DNA of 39,319 nt, taken from the IMG/VR virus record IMGVR_UViG_3300045965_000132, positions 1-39,319 of that record, one strand, 5' to 3'. Below, in pieces: positions 28,017 through 35,524 of the stretch. This DNA is from a virus. The first letter of the stretch is position 1, and each line of letters opens with the position of its first letter. The notes beneath the pieces are model-generated. The model saw only the letters and a program-made list of their open reading frames with translations. It was not told the origin of the DNA and did no database searches. Position numbers and translations under genes: made by a program.

Positions 28017-28414
28017 GAGGGCGCCTCGAGTGGTGATGTTGGCCACGCCACACCGAGCGCACGCACCGAATCCGCGACGAACTCGTTCAGGCGTGGATAG
28101 CCGTTGCTGCGAGCGTTCGTGATGATCCGGGCGACGTCTCCAGGACCGAGCTGCTCGATTGCGACGCGGCGGTAGAGCTCGGCGTGGAACGTGGCGTAGC
28201 GTTGGAGTTCGCGCGGATCCGCGGTGCCGATCGTGAGCGGCTTGCTCTTGGCGGCCTTGCGCACCAGGCTCACCAGCAGACCGCTCGCGTTGCGCACGAC
28301 CTTCCGCTTCGCCATGTCGATGACCTGGCCGGCGATCGCGTGCACGTCGACCTGCTCGTACTGGAGCGCCAGGCGGTCGACCAGGCCGGGCTCGAACAGG
28401 CTCGCGACCTTCAC
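28010..28414 (-). CDS. Hypothetical protein next to the replication gene
   Basis: 134 residues, mainly helical and basic (DMAKRKVVRNASGLLVSLVR; YATFHAELYRRVAIEQLGPG). GTG 28414 overlaps the TGA of the DUF1376 gene (GTGA) behind GGGGGAGG, so it is translated with it; its end overlaps csrA. Position immediately after a replication initiator would suit a helicase loader or primosome accessory factor, but no AAA or DnaC-like motif is present. Not recognised. Confidence 0.6.
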   Translation of the reverse strand: MKVASLFEPGLVDRLALQYEQVDVHAIAGQVIDMAKRKVVRNASGLLVSLVRKAAKSKPLTIGTADPRELQRYATFHAELYRRVAIEQLGPGDVARIITNARSNGYPRLNEFVADSVRALGVAWPTSPLEAPSC

Positions 28415-29157
28415 GCGGGCCTCCCCCGTAGCCGACGCAGCTGCTCGTCGCGCTCCTGGGCGGCGCCCTGCTCGGTGCTCACGTCGGCACCGGTGAGCGT
28501 GCCTCGAGACGTGGGGATGCCGGACATGATGCCGGCAAGGACCTGGCCTATCGGGGTCGGTCCCGTGCCAGACGGTGCGGCGCTCGATCGATCGGGTTCG
28601 GGTGTTCCCTGACGCGAGATATCGCCGGCCGTGCCGGCCTCTGGCGGCCCGACCCGTGTATCGGAGTCAGAATTTGGCACGGAGTAATTCTTAGATTCTT
28701 CTTTTAAGGCAGAGGCAGGGCTGACAGTTGAGCGACGGGTCGAGCGACGCTTGAGCGACGCATCAGCGACAGTTGAGCGACCTTCAAGCGACGATTCAGC
28801 GACGTTTGAGCGACGTCCCCAACGCATTGCGTTAGTTGCGTTTGCTCCACGCGTCGCTATTTCCCGCCTCTCGATCTGTGCTTTTCGCTCCCGAATTGCT
28901 CTCCGTTGAAGCCACGTTCCGTCGTCCCGCACCTGAAATCTCTCCGAAAAAACCTGTCGGTGGGCTGGCCATTCCTCCTCGGTGTACCCCGCCCAGCGCC
29001 TCACCTGGTCCTCGGTCATGACCCCTGGGGTTGGGGTCTGGTGCGTGAACGCCAGGACGTCGATATACCCCCCGCGCTCGTCGCGAGACATGCCGCGGGT
29101 GTCGACGATCCAGTCGCGCCAGTAGAACTGGCTTGACGGCGCTCGATCTCGGGCCAT
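28411..29157 (-). CDS. Replication initiator-like protein, DUF1376 N-terminal domain
   Basis: 248 residues. Residues 8-100 are a DUF1376 (YdaU-type) domain: FYWRDWIVDTRGMSRDERGG, DVLAFTHQTPTPG, then WAGYTEEEWPAHRQVFSERF and DDGTWLQRRA. Such domains are typical of phage replication proteins acting like lambda O. Residues ~113-145 are a Ser/Arg-rich linker encoded by the 11-bp iteron array. The C-terminal part (GTGPTPIGQVLAGIMSG and RDEQLRRLRGR) is probably a partner-binding region. ATG 29157 overlaps the previous stop (TGATG). With the internal iterons it is the best candidate initiator. Confidence 0.82.
   Translation of the reverse strand: MARDRAPSSQFYWRDWIVDTRGMSRDERGGYIDVLAFTHQTPTPGVMTEDQVRRWAGYTEEEWPAHRQVFSERFQVRDDGTWLQRRAIRERKAQIERREIATRGANATNAMRWGRRSNVAESSLEGRSTVADASLKRRSTRRSTVSPASALKEESKNYSVPNSDSDTRVGPPEAGTAGDISRQGTPEPDRSSAAPSGTGPTPIGQVLAGIMSGIPTSRGTLTGADVSTEQGAAQERDEQLRRLRGRPA
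28671..28833. other. Candidate replication origin: AT-rich block, eight iterons, dyad
   Basis: Within the DUF1376 gene, the plus strand shows eight copies of a 9-base core (consensus TTGAGCGAC) starting at 28728, 28740, 28751, 28762, 28773, 28784, 28795 and 28806, a spacing of 11 bp after the first. The period equals about one helical turn. On one side lies an AT-rich stretch (28671-28707, including TAATTCTTAGATTC) that stands out in this GC-rich genome; on the other a perfect dyad AACGCA-T-TGCGTT (28821-28833). Lambda carries iterons and an AT-rich unwinding element inside gene O in the same way. Confidence 0.75.
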
Positions 29158-31202: not shown

Positions 31203-31831
31203 GACGTGACCTCCTGTCGAATGGGTGATGACAACGCACGCGCCAGCGCGATCGTCAGCCGGACGTCGGTCAGCGCCTCGTGGGCGCCCTCGATGGGAAT
31301 GCCGAAGTACTGACAGAGGGTGGTGAGCTTGAAGTCGCGTGGCCCGTCCCCGGCTGGCGGAGCAAGGCGACTCAGCTCGAGCCGGTTCTCGTCGAACCAC
31401 CACATCGCCCGCTGCATCGTGTCGCGCACGCGCAGGTCGATCGGGAGCCAGAACGACTCGGCCTTCGCCGCCCGGATGAGCCGCGGCCCGTCGAACGTAG
31501 CGGCGTTGTGTCCGATCAACTTCGCGGCCATGTAGGCCCGGCCGGTGCGATGACTCACCAGGCGGACCGAGCGGTGCCGGTCGAGGAACTGGACGAACTG
31601 CGACAGCACCAGGCGCCGCGGCGCTGCGTCCTTCCACGCCTCGGGCGAGTAGTGGTTGATCTGCAGAGCCTCGAGGACGGCGTCGTCCGGGTTGAACGCG
31701 ATCTTCCGCTCGAACGTCTCCAGCTCCGTCCAGGTCTCCTCATCGACCGCGATCGCCGCGAGCTGGATATCCGGGTGCTGCGGCTCGACGCCGCCGGTCT
31801 CGAGGTCGAAGAAGACGGCCCGGGGCTTCAC
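31199..31831 (-). CDS. DnaQ-like 3'-5' exonuclease
   Basis: 210 residues with all DEDDh landmarks: FFDLETGG (Asp9, Glu11), IGHNAATFDGPRL (Asp114) and HEALTDV (His184, Asp189). These bind two metals for 3'-5' hydrolysis of nucleic acid. Stand-alone phage members act in proofreading-like or repair/recombination roles; no polymerase is encoded here. GTG 31831 overlaps the TGA of the RecE-like gene (GTGA), and the stop overlaps the next ATG, so it is part of a tightly coupled nuclease operon. Confidence 0.9.
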   Translation of the reverse strand: MKPRAVFFDLETGGVEPQHPDIQLAAIAVDEETWTELETFERKIAFNPDDAVLEALQINHYSPEAWKDAAPRRLVLSQFVQFLDRHRSVRLVSHRTGRAYMAAKLIGHNAATFDGPRLIRAAKAESFWLPIDLRVRDTMQRAMWWFDENRLELSRLAPPAGDGPRDFKLTTLCQYFGIPIEGAHEALTDVRLTIALARALSSPIRQEVTS

Positions 31832-32712
31832 GAGGCCACCTCCTCGCCCTCGGGCATCGACTCGAACGCCCGATCGGTGACGGTGGCCATGACGGGGCCC
31901 GGGAACATGCCGGGCCAGCGGTCGTCCCGCTCGCAGGCCTCGAGCGTCATCATGAGCTGCTCGTTCCGGACACTCCCGCAGACCAGGGCGGCCTGCTCGA
32001 GCTCGAAGACGCCGACGTCGTGGGGCGGCGTCGACTCGACGGCGATGAAATAGAACAGGGGAACCTCGCGCCCGAGCCGGGAGAGGCCGTCCATGTACCA
32101 GGCGGCCTTCCGGTGGTAGCCGTAGCGCGTCATCTCGTAGGGGCTGAAGTCGCGCAGCGAGCGCGTCGTCTTGACGTCTGCGACCCAGCCCTCACCCAGT
32201 AGGTCGGCGCGGCCGCGGCAGAGGCGCGGCTTGCCGGTCTTCCCGTGAGGCCAGCCCCACCAGAGCATCGTCAGCTCACGCTCGCGCGCCCGCGGCAGCA
32301 GCCGGCCCACCCGGGGGTGCGCCGTGATCGAGAGTGCCATGGCCCGGACCTTCTCCATGACGTCGGTCCGGAGCACCGTGAAGCCCCCCTGCTCGATGTC
32401 CGCGACCGCGTCCTTGTAGGCCCGGGTCGCGCGCGGCTTAGAGTTGCCGGCGGCGACGTCGAGCGGCTCCAAGACGAAGCGCTTCTCGAACAGCTCGGGC
32501 TCGAGCACCGCGGCGTGCAGCGCCGTGCCGAGTGCGAGTGACGGTGATTCCTCCGCCGGCTGGCCGAGCCGCCAGCGGTAGTGAAGCGGACTCACCTCGA
32601 GCCACTCGAGTCGGCCCGAGTTCATGGCGTCGAACTTCAGGTACTCGGCCATCGGGACGTCTCGGTAGAAGCCGCCCTCGACGGGATCGGCCAGCACGCG
32701 CTCAGTCGTCAT
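31828..32712 (-). CDS. RecE/exonuclease VIII-like PD-(D/E)XK exonuclease
   Basis: 294 residues. The N-terminal SPLHYRWR and LGTALHAAVLEPELFEKRF segments, followed by CRGRADLL (Asp170), VADVKTT (Asp179, Lys181) and YGYHRKAAWYMDGL, are the ordered motifs of the RecE C-terminal exonuclease family. The enzyme chews the 5' strand of double-stranded DNA to expose 3' ends for annealing. ATG 32712 overlaps the repeat-protein gene by 11 bp. No RecT was recognised; the 241-residue protein two genes downstream is a possible partner. Confidence 0.9.
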   Translation of the reverse strand: MTTERVLADPVEGGFYRDVPMAEYLKFDAMNSGRLEWLEVSPLHYRWRLGQPAEESPSLALGTALHAAVLEPELFEKRFVLEPLDVAAGNSKPRATRAYKDAVADIEQGGFTVLRTDVMEKVRAMALSITAHPRVGRLLPRARERELTMLWWGWPHGKTGKPRLCRGRADLLGEGWVADVKTTRSLRDFSPYEMTRYGYHRKAAWYMDGLSRLGREVPLFYFIAVESTPPHDVGVFELEQAALVCGSVRNEQLMMTLEACERDDRWPGMFPGPVMATVTDRAFESMPEGEEVAS

Positions 32713-33760
32713 GGCTCACCCTCCGCTCCACGAGCTCGCCATTAACGACCTCGTACCACGTGTCCGCCTTGATGCCATCCTCGCCGACGTAGCCCACGGC
32801 AACGCGCGGCCGACCTTCGACCTGGTCGCCATCCCACCACGCGATTACGACGCAGCCCTTCTCGCCTGCGCGAGCTCGGCTCTTCAAGCCAAGGCAGGCG
32901 GCGATCGAGCACTTGCCGGCGGTGGACGCCGGCGCGCGGTCCCCGGCGGTGGACGCCGGCGCGAGGTACCCGGCGGTGGACGCCGGCGCGCGGTGCCCGG
33001 CGGTGGACGCCGGCGCGCGGTACCCGGCGGTGGACGCCGGCGCGAGGTTCCCGGCGGTGGACGCCGGCGCGCGGTCCCCGGCGGTGGACGCCGGCGCGCG
33101 GTCCCCGGCGGTGGACGCCGGCGCGAGGTACCCGGCGGTGGACGCCGGCGCGCGGTCCCCGGCGGTGGACGCCGGCGCGCGGTCCCCGGCGGTGGACGCC
33201 GGCGCGAGGTCCCCGGCGGTGGACGCCGGCGCGCGGTGCCCGGCGGTGGACGCCGGCGCGCGGTACCCGGCGGTGGACGCCGGCGCGAGGTCCCCGGCGG
33301 TGGACGCCGGCGCGCGGTGCCCGGCGGTGGACGCCGGCGCGCGGTACCCGGCGGTGGACGCCGGCGCGAGGTCCCCGGCGGTGGACGCCGCACCCTCCCA
33401 TGCCTTGCTGTTCATCCGAATATAGGCGGTAGCTCCCACCAGCCCGCGCGCCTGGCCCTGCTGCACGAAGACCAGTTCACCCGTCCGAAACTTAACCTTC
33501 GAACCGTCGGGGAACCGCACGAGGTTTTCCGACGAATCCTCAACTTTGTAGATCTGCCACCATGCGAGAGGATCGTCGAGGCGCATCAGCCCGTAATCGC
33601 CGAGCCCGTACTCCAGCCCGTGAATGCCGCCGCCGCACTGCGCTCTGCCATCCCAGTCTGGAGCCGTCACAACAGCGCCGACCTCGATCGGATGCTTGAA
33701 ACCGTTGTAACTACCGCCATCCGCCTCGCATGTGCGCAACACGAGCACCGTCTTCGTCAC
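32702..33760 (-). CDS. Repeat protein with 18 nonapeptide units and conserved C-terminal domain
   Basis: 352 residues in three parts. Residues 1-120 form a globular head (GGGIHGLEYGLGDYGLMRLD; ENLVRFPDGSKVKFRTGELV). Then 17 full and one partial nonapeptide repeats follow, consensus ASTAG-[DYHN]-[LR]-AP. The C-terminus has CSIAACLGLKSRARAGEKGC, VVIAWWDG and IKADTWYEVVNGELV, a recurrent ending of proteins with ASATG/ASTAG-type repeat stems. Such repeats probably build a beta-solenoid. It lies between HNH and RecE-like genes and has no export signal, so an intracellular role is expected. Function unknown. Confidence 0.8.
   Translation of the reverse strand: MTKTVLVLRTCEADGGSYNGFKHPIEVGAVVTAPDWDGRAQCGGGIHGLEYGLGDYGLMRLDDPLAWWQIYKVEDSSENLVRFPDGSKVKFRTGELVFVQQGQARGLVGATAYIRMNSKAWEGAASTAGDLAPASTAGYRAPASTAGHRAPASTAGDLAPASTAGYRAPASTAGHRAPASTAGDLAPASTAGDRAPASTAGDRAPASTAGYLAPASTAGDRAPASTAGDRAPASTAGNLAPASTAGYRAPASTAGHRAPASTAGYLAPASTAGDRAPASTAGKCSIAACLGLKSRARAGEKGCVVIAWWDGDQVEGRPRVAVGYVGEDGIKADTWYEVVNGELVERRVSHDD
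32916..33390 (-). repeat. 27-bp tandem array with one four-way variable base per unit
   Basis: Seventeen full and one partial unit of 27 bp, contiguous and nearly identical in DNA. On the minus strand each unit reads GCG TCC ACC GCC GGG NAC CKC GCG CC-. N is G (8 units), T (5), C (3) or A (1), giving Asp, Tyr, His or Asn. K is T in every third unit exactly and G in the others (Leu/Arg/Arg), so a perfect 81-bp higher-order period overlies the 27-bp one. The absence of silent drift implies recent expansion or homogenisation. Confidence 0.95.
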
Positions 33761-34059
33761 GCGGCACGCTCCCGGAGCCGGCGGCCCCGCGCATAGGCGT
33801 CCTGCATGTTCGTGCTGTGGTTCCCGGCGTAGAGGTGTTGCGGCCGCACACAGGCCGGCGTGTCGCAGTGGTGGCAGATGATCCGGCCCTTCGGGATCCG
33901 GCCGTGGAACAGGCGGTAGGCCACGCGGTGCGCGTAATGGACGATGCCGCGGAGCTTGAAGATCCCGTAGCCCTCGCCCATCCGGGCGCGGCGCCAGATC
34001 CAGCAGCCGCCGGCCGTGACCCGGACGTGCCGACGCAGGGACTCGCGCGTGAGGATCAT
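33757..34059 (-). CDS. HNH endonuclease
   Basis: 100 residues with a complete HNH_3-type core: GGCWIWRRARMGEGYG start, HYAHRVAYRLFHG, IICHHCDTPACVRPQHLYAG (His63/His64, metal Cys residues) and GNHSTNMQDA (Asn80). Such enzymes nick or cut DNA; in cos-type phages HNH proteins near terminase assist end formation, while others are free-standing homing nucleases. It sits between the SbcC-like ATPase and the repeat gene. ATG 34059 overlaps the ATPase stop. Confidence 0.92.
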   Translation of the reverse strand: MILTRESLRRHVRVTAGGCWIWRRARMGEGYGIFKLRGIVHYAHRVAYRLFHGRIPKGRIICHHCDTPACVRPQHLYAGNHSTNMQDAYARGRRLRERAA

Positions 34060-35336
34060 GAACGCACCCCCTGCGCGGCGGCCGCGGCGACGGTCCCGTC
34101 CTCGATGACGACGGTCGCGCCCTCAGCCTCCACCCGCTCGAGCCAGAGCTGGGTGTCGTACTGGTCCGCGAGCTGCCCCATGAGCTCGAGCGCCTCGCTG
34201 TCGAGCAGCGAGGCGTCGCGCACCAACATGACGCGGAGCGACGGATTGAGCGCCGCCCCGATCGCGACCGAGACCCGGAGCTGCTCGGCCGCAGACGCCT
34301 GGTCGAACGGCAGGCCGTTGAGCGTGACGCCGCCGTTCACATCGAAGGCGAGCCCCTCAACCGGGAACTGCGCCTCCGCGATCGCCTTCTGCTTGGCGGC
34401 GAGGATCCCGTCGATCCGCTCCGTGAGCTTCGCCGACTCGGCCCGCTTTGCCTCGAGTTCGCGCTCGGCGGTCGCGCGAGAACGGTTCTCGCGTACCTTG
34501 CGGTTCGTCGCCTCGAGACCAGCCAGGCGCTCGCGGAGCGGCGCCAGGTCGACGTCCACCAGCTTGTCGACGCCCGCCTTCCACTCGGCGACGTTCAGCC
34601 GCTGGACCTCGGCACGCTTCTCGTACTCGGCAAGGCTGGCGGTGAGGGTCGCGATCTGCTCGCGGCAGGTCGCGATCGCGTCCTCGGTATCGTGTACGCG
34701 CTGGACCAGCTGCTCGGTCTTCTCGCGCGCATCCTTGTGCGAGAGGTTCGTCTCCTGCGCGCGTTCGATCTCGTCGAGCAGCTCGTGCGCCGAGACCTCG
34801 AGCTCCGGCGCCTCGTGCTGCGCGGGTATGCCGTCCAGGCGCGCCTTGAGCGCACGCCCCTCGCGGTTCACATCGGTCCGGGCGTTGAACGCCGCGTCGC
34901 GCTCCCGGTCGAGCTCGGCGAAGTCCAGACCCACGAGGGCCCGCAGCGTCGCCGCCTGGCCGGCCGGAGCCATGCGTGCGAACTCCAGCGGGTCGAACGA
35001 CAGGCTGCCGGTCAGGTCGTTGAGCCGGCCCTGCGGCGAGGTGAACCGGGCGCCGTCCTTGGTCTCTACGGTGAGAGTTCCGCCCCCCTCGGCCGTGAAG
35101 GTCCGTCTCACGATGAGTTCGCCGAGGTCGCAGGTGACCTCGGCGTGCTTCTCGCCGCGGCGCACCGGTTCCTTGCAGATCAGGTCCTTGCCGCCGAGCG
35201 CGTAGGCGATCGAATCGAGCACGGAGCTCTTTCCCTGCCCGTTGCGCCCGCCGACAATGACGACGTTCCCGTCCGGGCGGATCTCGACGGCCCGGATGCG
35301 CTTCACGTTCTTGACGACCAGGTCGAGGATCTTCAT
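34056..35336 (-). CDS. RecF/SbcC-like SMC-type ATPase
   Basis: 426 residues from ATG 35336. The N-terminus has VVKNVKRIRAVEI and the Walker A loop GGRNGQGKSSVLDSIAYALG (residues 29-48). A central coiled coil (about 140-330) contains heptads such as ERAQETNLSHKDAREKTEQL and AELEAKR-type runs, without a clear zinc hook. The C-terminal half-site has QLRVSVAIGAALNPSLRVML and RDASLLDSEALELM, the signature and Walker B region. Such ATPases act in DNA end processing or recombination. No SbcD-like nuclease is encoded; the HNH gene overlaps its stop and could be the partner. Confidence 0.9.
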   Translation of the reverse strand: MKILDLVVKNVKRIRAVEIRPDGNVVIVGGRNGQGKSSVLDSIAYALGGKDLICKEPVRRGEKHAEVTCDLGELIVRRTFTAEGGGTLTVETKDGARFTSPQGRLNDLTGSLSFDPLEFARMAPAGQAATLRALVGLDFAELDRERDAAFNARTDVNREGRALKARLDGIPAQHEAPELEVSAHELLDEIERAQETNLSHKDAREKTEQLVQRVHDTEDAIATCREQIATLTASLAEYEKRAEVQRLNVAEWKAGVDKLVDVDLAPLRERLAGLEATNRKVRENRSRATAERELEAKRAESAKLTERIDGILAAKQKAIAEAQFPVEGLAFDVNGGVTLNGLPFDQASAAEQLRVSVAIGAALNPSLRVMLVRDASLLDSEALELMGQLADQYDTQLWLERVEAEGATVVIEDGTVAAAAAQGVRS

Positions 35337-35524
35337 GGCCGCCCCCGCAGGAGCTCGAGCAGGCCGAGCAGGTCGGTCCACACGAGGGGAGCGACGTGGC
35401 CGCCGAAGTAGACGGCGGCCACGAACAGCATGACGGCGATGATGAACTCCCCGGTCGGGCGGGGAGCCCGGTCGGGGTCGAACGATGGGACGTGACGCGA
35501 GGGAGCTTTCTGGTCGGACTTCAT
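35333..35524 (-). CDS. Small single-pass membrane protein
   Basis: 63 residues from ATG 35524 behind GGAGGTC. It has a charged Pro-rich N-terminus (SRHVPSFDPDRAPRPTG) and one hydrophobic segment (residues 27-50, FIIAVMLFVAAVYFGGHVAP), and ends LLGLLELLRGRP. It is the first gene of the leftward early operon after the 35571-35647 dyad, with its stop overlapping the ATPase start. A superinfection-exclusion or host-takeover role would suit such a gene; nothing specific is seen. Confidence 0.65.
   Translation of the reverse strand: MKSDQKAPSRHVPSFDPDRAPRPTGEFIIAVMLFVAAVYFGGHVAPLVWTDLLGLLELLRGRP

Follow-up and report, generated by a model that had tools for sequence, protein, structure and literature searches.

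A Bbp36/VR2-type phage repeat protein with copied two-residue words on a predicted solenoid

The virus record IMGVR_UViG_3300045965_000132 of IMG/VR, analysed here over positions 1 to 39,319 (the window, 39,319 nucleotides), carries on its minus strand a gene for a repeat protein that, judged by homology along its full length, is a member of the Bbp36/VR2 type, an already known kind of phage protein. In this family the two variable residues of each repeat behave as copied cassettes, or words, and the arrays turn over far faster than their flanks. Confidence in this anatomy and in cassette shuffling is high, and we regard as probable the whole model, in which the repeats of a Bbp36/VR2-type protein would form the rungs of a solenoid carrying shuffled words on an outward surface under selection. 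VR2 has been known since the Bordetella phage genomes were published. It now appears as one case of a broad family, spread over phages and bacteria of several phyla: in more than 200 arrays it is the same two residues of each rung that vary, while silent sites hardly do. This makes it testable which partner would read the words and which recombination route would shuffle them. The gene, its parts and its neighbours are the following:

32702-33760, minus strand: repeat-protein gene, 352 aa, GTG start, Bbp36 homologue (ORF; phrogs; tblastn)
33404-33760, minus strand: N-terminal domain, residues 1-119, putatively of Bbp36/DUF7666 type (40% identity to the Bbp36 N-terminus, E 7e-17)
32916-33390, minus strand: array of 17 x 27-bp (9-aa) units (TRF; unit table; AlphaFold2 strand at ASTA)
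32705-32914, minus strand: C-terminal domain, residues 283-352 (homologues' C-termini; predicted strands 303-345)
31828-32712, minus strand: next gene, exonuclease VIII-like (PDDEXK, DUF3799; phrog_412 E 1.1e-54; PF12684 E 8e-19)
33757-34059, minus strand: preceding gene, HNH endonuclease (PF13392 E 1e-12; phrog_1872 E 7.9e-28)
34056-35381, minus strand: SbcC-like ATPase (PF13476 E 2e-12; phrog_77 E 9.2e-14)

The 27-bp array that had been proposed from the letters alone is real: TRF reports at 32916-33390 a period of 27 with 17.6 copies, 94% matches and a score of 845, the unit-by-unit table agrees, and the array belongs to the coding sequence of the minus-strand ORF 32702-33760. The unit reads NAC CKC GCG CCG GCG TCC ACC GCC GGG on that strand and encodes X1 X2 A P A S T A G. 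Across the 17 full units 3 of the 27 columns vary, namely the first base of X1 (codons GAC/TAC/CAC/AAC; G in eight units, T in five, C in three and A in one), the second base of X2 (codons CTC/CGC; TGGTGGTGGTGGTGGTG) and a silent G-to-C change at the final base of the last unit, position 32915, just beyond the array range. The words follow one another as DL YR HR DL YR HR DL DR DR YL DR DR NL YR HR YL DR, with the three copies of His at X1 in the YR-HR block. The strict T-G-G alternation described earlier is borne out at X2 (14 of 14 lag-3 matches, shuffle mean 7.2, p = 6e-4), so that the 81-bp super-period stands for this column, but not for X1 (6 of 14 lag-3 matches, p = 0.2). With two variable columns, the window alone says little on selection, and it is the relatives that inform. 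All six reading frames are open across the array; the ORF on the plus strand over it is an artefact of the GC-rich repeat. A CRISPR array was also considered and rejected, the array being coding and its units differing at two codons. A second tandem repeat of the window, degenerate and of 11/33 bp, lies at 28728-28815 inside a primosomal-like ORF (28411-29157).

The repeat protein matches phrog_18079 (E 5.7e-33), phrog_4433 (E 3e-23) and phrog_27197 (E 6.9e-14), and its best full-length relatives are the VR2 genes of the Bordetella phages BMP-1, BPP-1 and BIP-1 (39-43% identity over 97% of the query, tblastn), whose bbp36 array bears the annotation 'variable region 2'. VR2 consists of a 24-bp element of bbp36, present in 9-20 copies according to isolate (Liu et al., 2002, 2004, via PMC2884959); it is independent of tropism, and bbp36 is a non-essential gene (PMC2884959). 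Homologous N- and C-terminal domains, a constant core and a variable dipeptide after Gly, as in the VR2 type, are all present in the window, and the array has the same place in the protein and the gene lies in the early region; unit number and order vary between near-isogenic Bordetella phages and between other phages of the family. The two differ in that VR2 has 24-bp/8-aa units (GTATAG plus YR, ES or NY), whereas the window has 27-bp/9-aa units and other words, and the 81-bp period, at X2 only, is found in the window. The N-terminal domain has an invariant G, C and G-x-H motif. The N-terminus of Bbp36 matches Pfam DUF7666 (PF24703) with E 1.7e-10, whereas the window protein gave no match to this model above the cut-off (profile-profile P 0.06), and the link to DUF7666 thus runs via Bbp36 only. 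Repeat proteins with DUF7666 from phages and prophages (e.g., ES18 gp53 and P. aeruginosa phage genes) share the layout, with a 9-aa unit, X1X2 and a related C-terminal domain, but their core is SAASNTG or SAATNTG instead of APASTAG and the N-domain of the window is unrecognised by the DUF7666 model. The C-terminal domain is 39-54% identical (E 3e-10) to the C-termini of homologues with both 8-aa and 9-aa repeats. A literature search returned no papers on DUF7666 or on mycobacteriophage tetrapeptide repeat proteins, and none relevant on the repeat motifs.

The gene belongs to a run of overlapping minus-strand genes for an SbcC-like ATPase, an HNH endonuclease, the repeat protein, an exonuclease VIII-like protein and a DnaQ-like exonuclease, the repeat gene sharing 4 bp with the HNH gene and 11 bp with the exonuclease VIII-like gene. 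The record is that of a tailed phage and includes genes for a GpA-type terminase, a portal and a tape-measure protein. In the eight relatives with annotation (BPP-1, Flu_PA14_4, Vibrio 1.185.O, GF-2, Mica, ES18, Montmirail and Shpa) the gene adjoins N, CI, recombination or replication genes, away from tail genes. At the DNA level the window gene had no relatives among phages, and the region from 26 to 39.3 kb had only a short terminase match to AcaML1. No match to the ES18-type gene was found in E. coli genomes, and a search of bacterial genomes with P0001 gave pattern matches with no confirmed relatives.

Where the variation falls was established on two sets of arrays: 164 viral ones with at least five units, taken from loci collected from IMG/VR with four queries, and 54 of bacterial genomes, which include Pseudomonadota, Bacillota, Bacteroidota and other groups; the arrays are partly non-independent, many coming from related phages, and the bacterial-genome set spans phyla. 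In the viral arrays mean heterozygosity is 0.585, 0.059 and 0.054 at the three bases of X1 and 0.416, 0.348 and 0.253 at those of X2, against 0.008 at non-synonymous and 0.032 at four-fold silent sites of the core. The X positions exceed four-fold silent sites in all 164 viral and all 54 bacterial-genome arrays (218/218). The concentration of variation at the X1 column that had been read from the window therefore holds family-wide, and homologues do not vary evenly over all positions, silent ones included, in either set (164 + 54 arrays). The first base of X1 is variable in 99% of arrays, and its second and third bases in about 16% and 15%. The claim of a four-state base fits the window and does not carry over to the family, in which X1 has three states, normally D, Y or N, and X2 is equally important: His occurs in 3 of 148 arrays and all four states in the window only (1/148), whose X1 column is thus the exception. 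His is one transition away from Tyr. The words DY, YQ and NR recur, in several codon spellings, on 84 different spellings of the core, while in 9-aa arrays 107 occurrences of the pair YY would be expected and 3 are seen. Selection, one of the two causes suggested earlier, is favoured by these data: X variants are kept in nearly all arrays, X1 residues are restricted and silent sites are near-constant, whereas neutral turnover would treat silent and replacement variants alike. We infer that several words are maintained by selection acting on the protein, and that the core is meanwhile homogenised.

The way in which arrays change can be read from spellings and from close pairs. Within an array a word has one DNA spelling in 454 of 465 multi-copy array-words; as many spellings exist across arrays, this indicates that arrays are homogenised internally. 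Where the Gly codon ahead of a word varies at its silent base, this marker moves along with the word: in L009, a close relative, YL always follows GGT, and DL/DR follow GGG. Single spellings and co-travelling markers point to cassette copying by repeat recombination plus selection, and the targeted change at one four-state base proposed as the other cause is not supported, given the same evidence and the three-state nature of X1. Arrays differ where flanks barely do: among BPP-1, BMP-1 and BIP-1 some 6.5 kb of flanking DNA holds 0-2 substitutions, yet they carry about 13, 20 and 19 units in different orders, L097 and L108 have 1 substitution in 1.87 kb and 27 versus 18 units, ES18 and L196 have 9 substitutions in 2 kb and 11 versus 28 units, and L143 and L147 have 0 substitutions in 2 kb, yet their words are rearranged. 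Identical arrays occur in none of the nine pairs at 0.05-0.5% flank divergence. Duplication of blocks is supported too: of 95 arrays compared with shuffles, 16 have longer repeated blocks (p < 0.05), and the periods of these blocks are varied. One unit of BMP-1 (L001:3850-3897) lacks the dipeptide (GTATAG GTATAG) and is a trace of imprecise repeat joining.

The two close relatives of the window are 82-86% identical to it and their contigs end in the array. L009 (82% identical, 16 units read) has no T-G-G pattern, and L010 is too short to judge the period. Expansion by 81-bp units would thus be a 3-unit duplication in this lineage and not a general feature. From the sequences the period looks like one recent local history of 3-unit duplication, and on the simplest reading the expansion of a 3-unit block was followed or accompanied by X1 changes and reshuffling; the predicted solenoid offers no obvious reason for a three-unit period. 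More generally, unequal recombination or strand annealing between the near-identical 18-21-bp cores would duplicate, delete and reorder blocks of words. Since an exonuclease VIII-like gene lies next to the repeat gene, phage-encoded annealing is a reasonable guess; the recombination signal Chi (GCTGGTGG) has no copies in 16.3 kb of ES18-like arrays.

The solenoid suggested for the array is also what AlphaFold2 predicts. Run on the window protein with alignment A3 (mean pLDDT 79.6 overall, about 70 in the repeats), it gives a beta-solenoid in which ASTA forms a short strand, recurring at nine-residue intervals, and G-X1-X2-A-P lies in the turn between strands. The notion of a variable column on a solenoid is accordingly upheld as far as the model goes, since X1X2 vary family-wide and sit in predicted turns. 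X1 likely faces outward, as judged from its turn position and from its having the same place after Ala-Gly as the outward Tyr of the ice nucleation protein. No even/odd word bias is found along arrays (lag-2 ratio 0.96); two solenoid faces with different partners might give such a bias, and its absence is a point against the preferred reading. In VIA-align the best match of the model is the RTX beta-roll 6sus (Z 11.3, 189 residues, 4.4 A, 5% identity) and beta-helices match at Z 7-9.7, while plain Foldseek against the PDB finds no significant match. By sequence, the window protein finds in the PDB only a compositional Spt5-repeat match and a weak CdiA match, and Bbp36 finds none. In BFVD the window model has weak matches (E 0.03-0.4), to RIIB of phages and to ankyrin-repeat proteins of mimivirus. 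As a lead only, the N-domain weakly resembles the ADP-ribosyltransferase fold in two separate models, that of the window (7zhl Z 4.8, 9iaf Z 4.2) and that of L186 (2aua Z 6.9, Arr Z 5.4, PARPs about Z 5); the tool warns that Z 4-7 may reflect a common arrangement, and with Foldseek the likeness is not significant.

Several known repeat systems resemble the array in part. The RTX beta-roll has nine-residue repeats and is the top structural match, but an RTX protein was rejected because the unit, XXAPASTAG, has no GGxGxDxUx calcium motif and identity is 5%. In the TAL effectors, too, a constant repeat carries two adjacent hypervariable residues; they are an analogy, with 34-residue helical repeats that read DNA and no relation to the window array. 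The ice nucleation protein is a solenoid with the 16-residue consensus AGYGSTQTAGEESSLT, whose Tyr is outward in the model (PMC9418140). This consensus resembles two VR2 octapeptides, AGYRGTAT AGESGTAT, and its Tyr sits at the X1 place. The likeness is in the repeats only, and this identity was rejected for the window protein, which has a 9-aa unit without TxT ice face, no membrane anchor and no Pfam match. Tweety gp54 of a mycobacteriophage has repeats that are invariant at silent sites, variable in amino acids and different in number between relatives (PMC2884959); the likeness is one of description, and its repeats are tetrapeptides with 12-bp units versus 27 bp in the window.

As to function, the words at X1/X2 would form a re-arrangeable, outward-facing binding surface on an early, non-virion protein. 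It would act within the host cell, and its most likely target would be a host partner that itself varies, e.g., a defence component. An early, non-virion variable binding surface is our best guess, and an early protein with a fast-changing surface would fit a role against such a partner. A counter-defence role is perhaps to be entertained, tentatively; PADLOC gave no match on eight family members. More doubtful is a bolder version, a widespread diversification independent of reverse transcriptase in which repeat recombination would rewire the two-residue words of early phage proteins within a few phage generations. Their ADP-ribosyltransferase-like head would thereby be re-aimed as host targets change, or the protein would escape recognition by the host. 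Should the solenoid be a binding surface, phages would have a second route to protein diversification, alongside diversity-generating retroelements, and both would occur in the same Bordetella phages.

These views compete with others. The array might be a neutral minisatellite, in which slippage and homogenisation move words that have no selected role, and the free expansion and contraction of arrays, the local super-period and the dispensability of the gene in the laboratory (PMC2884959) would suit it. We consider this unlikely, however, as X1 base 1 and X2 bases 1-2 exceed four-fold sites more than tenfold in diversity, X lies above those sites in all 218 arrays, identical amino-acid words are met in different phyla under different spellings and the reading frame is kept. 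Even less probable is a retroelement- or deaminase-like process that would target a single base in each unit for mutation, which had been raised by the sequence-only reading. Although X1 base 1 varies in 99% of arrays against about 16% and 15% at bases 2 and 3, and the window, alone, has all four bases, C (His) is almost absent family-wide (3/148 arrays), variation at X2 extends to all three bases, the words of BIP-1 (TATCGC, GAATCC, AATTAC) differ at several bases together and silent markers show linkage with the words. Mutagenesis by diversity-generating retroelements alters adenines at many sites; no RVT_1 reverse transcriptase match is present in the 39-kb record, which is possibly incomplete.

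A receptor-binding or virion surface protein, diversified for host range, is equally improbable. Variable surfaces are common in such proteins and there are weak phrog matches to tail fibre repeats (E 0.006-0.009), but the gene lies among early recombination/replication genes, outside tail modules, here and in the eight annotated relatives, and VR2 is unrelated to tropism (PMC2884959). Finally, an assembly artefact of a short-read metagenome can be set aside almost with certainty. In its favour, the contigs of both close relatives (L009, L010) terminate inside the array, and several other related contigs have both ends within an array, which indicates that assemblers break phage genomes at arrays. 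Against it, like arrays exist in isolate phages (BPP-1, ES18 and others) and in the complete chromosome of Haemophilus aegyptius, and the longest exact repeat within the array is 125 bp, no 127-mer occurring twice. With this length, 150-nt reads only barely resolve unit order, and the contigs of the relatives are broken; that the array exists is therefore surer than exactly how many units it has here. A surface of selected words shuffled by recombination is thus the reading that we prefer.

Some minor observations concern annotation and gene copies in the family. A like coding array of Vibrio phage 1.185.O (MG592551.1, L012:4039-4256) is annotated as CRISPR spacers 1-4 in GenBank, likely a mis-annotation, and the homologue of Burkholderia phage Mica (L014:4001-4660) is annotated 'ice nucleation protein' from repeat similarity. 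The IMG/VR contigs with both ends in an array are those with L036/L078, L046/L085, L049/L086, L052/L067, L043/L070, L080/L082 and L089/L092. One metagenome contig carries two copies of the gene (L053 and L064), a second contig carries two identical copies (L194 and L195), and the chromosome of Haemophilus aegyptius NCTC8502 has two copies (L257 and L260).
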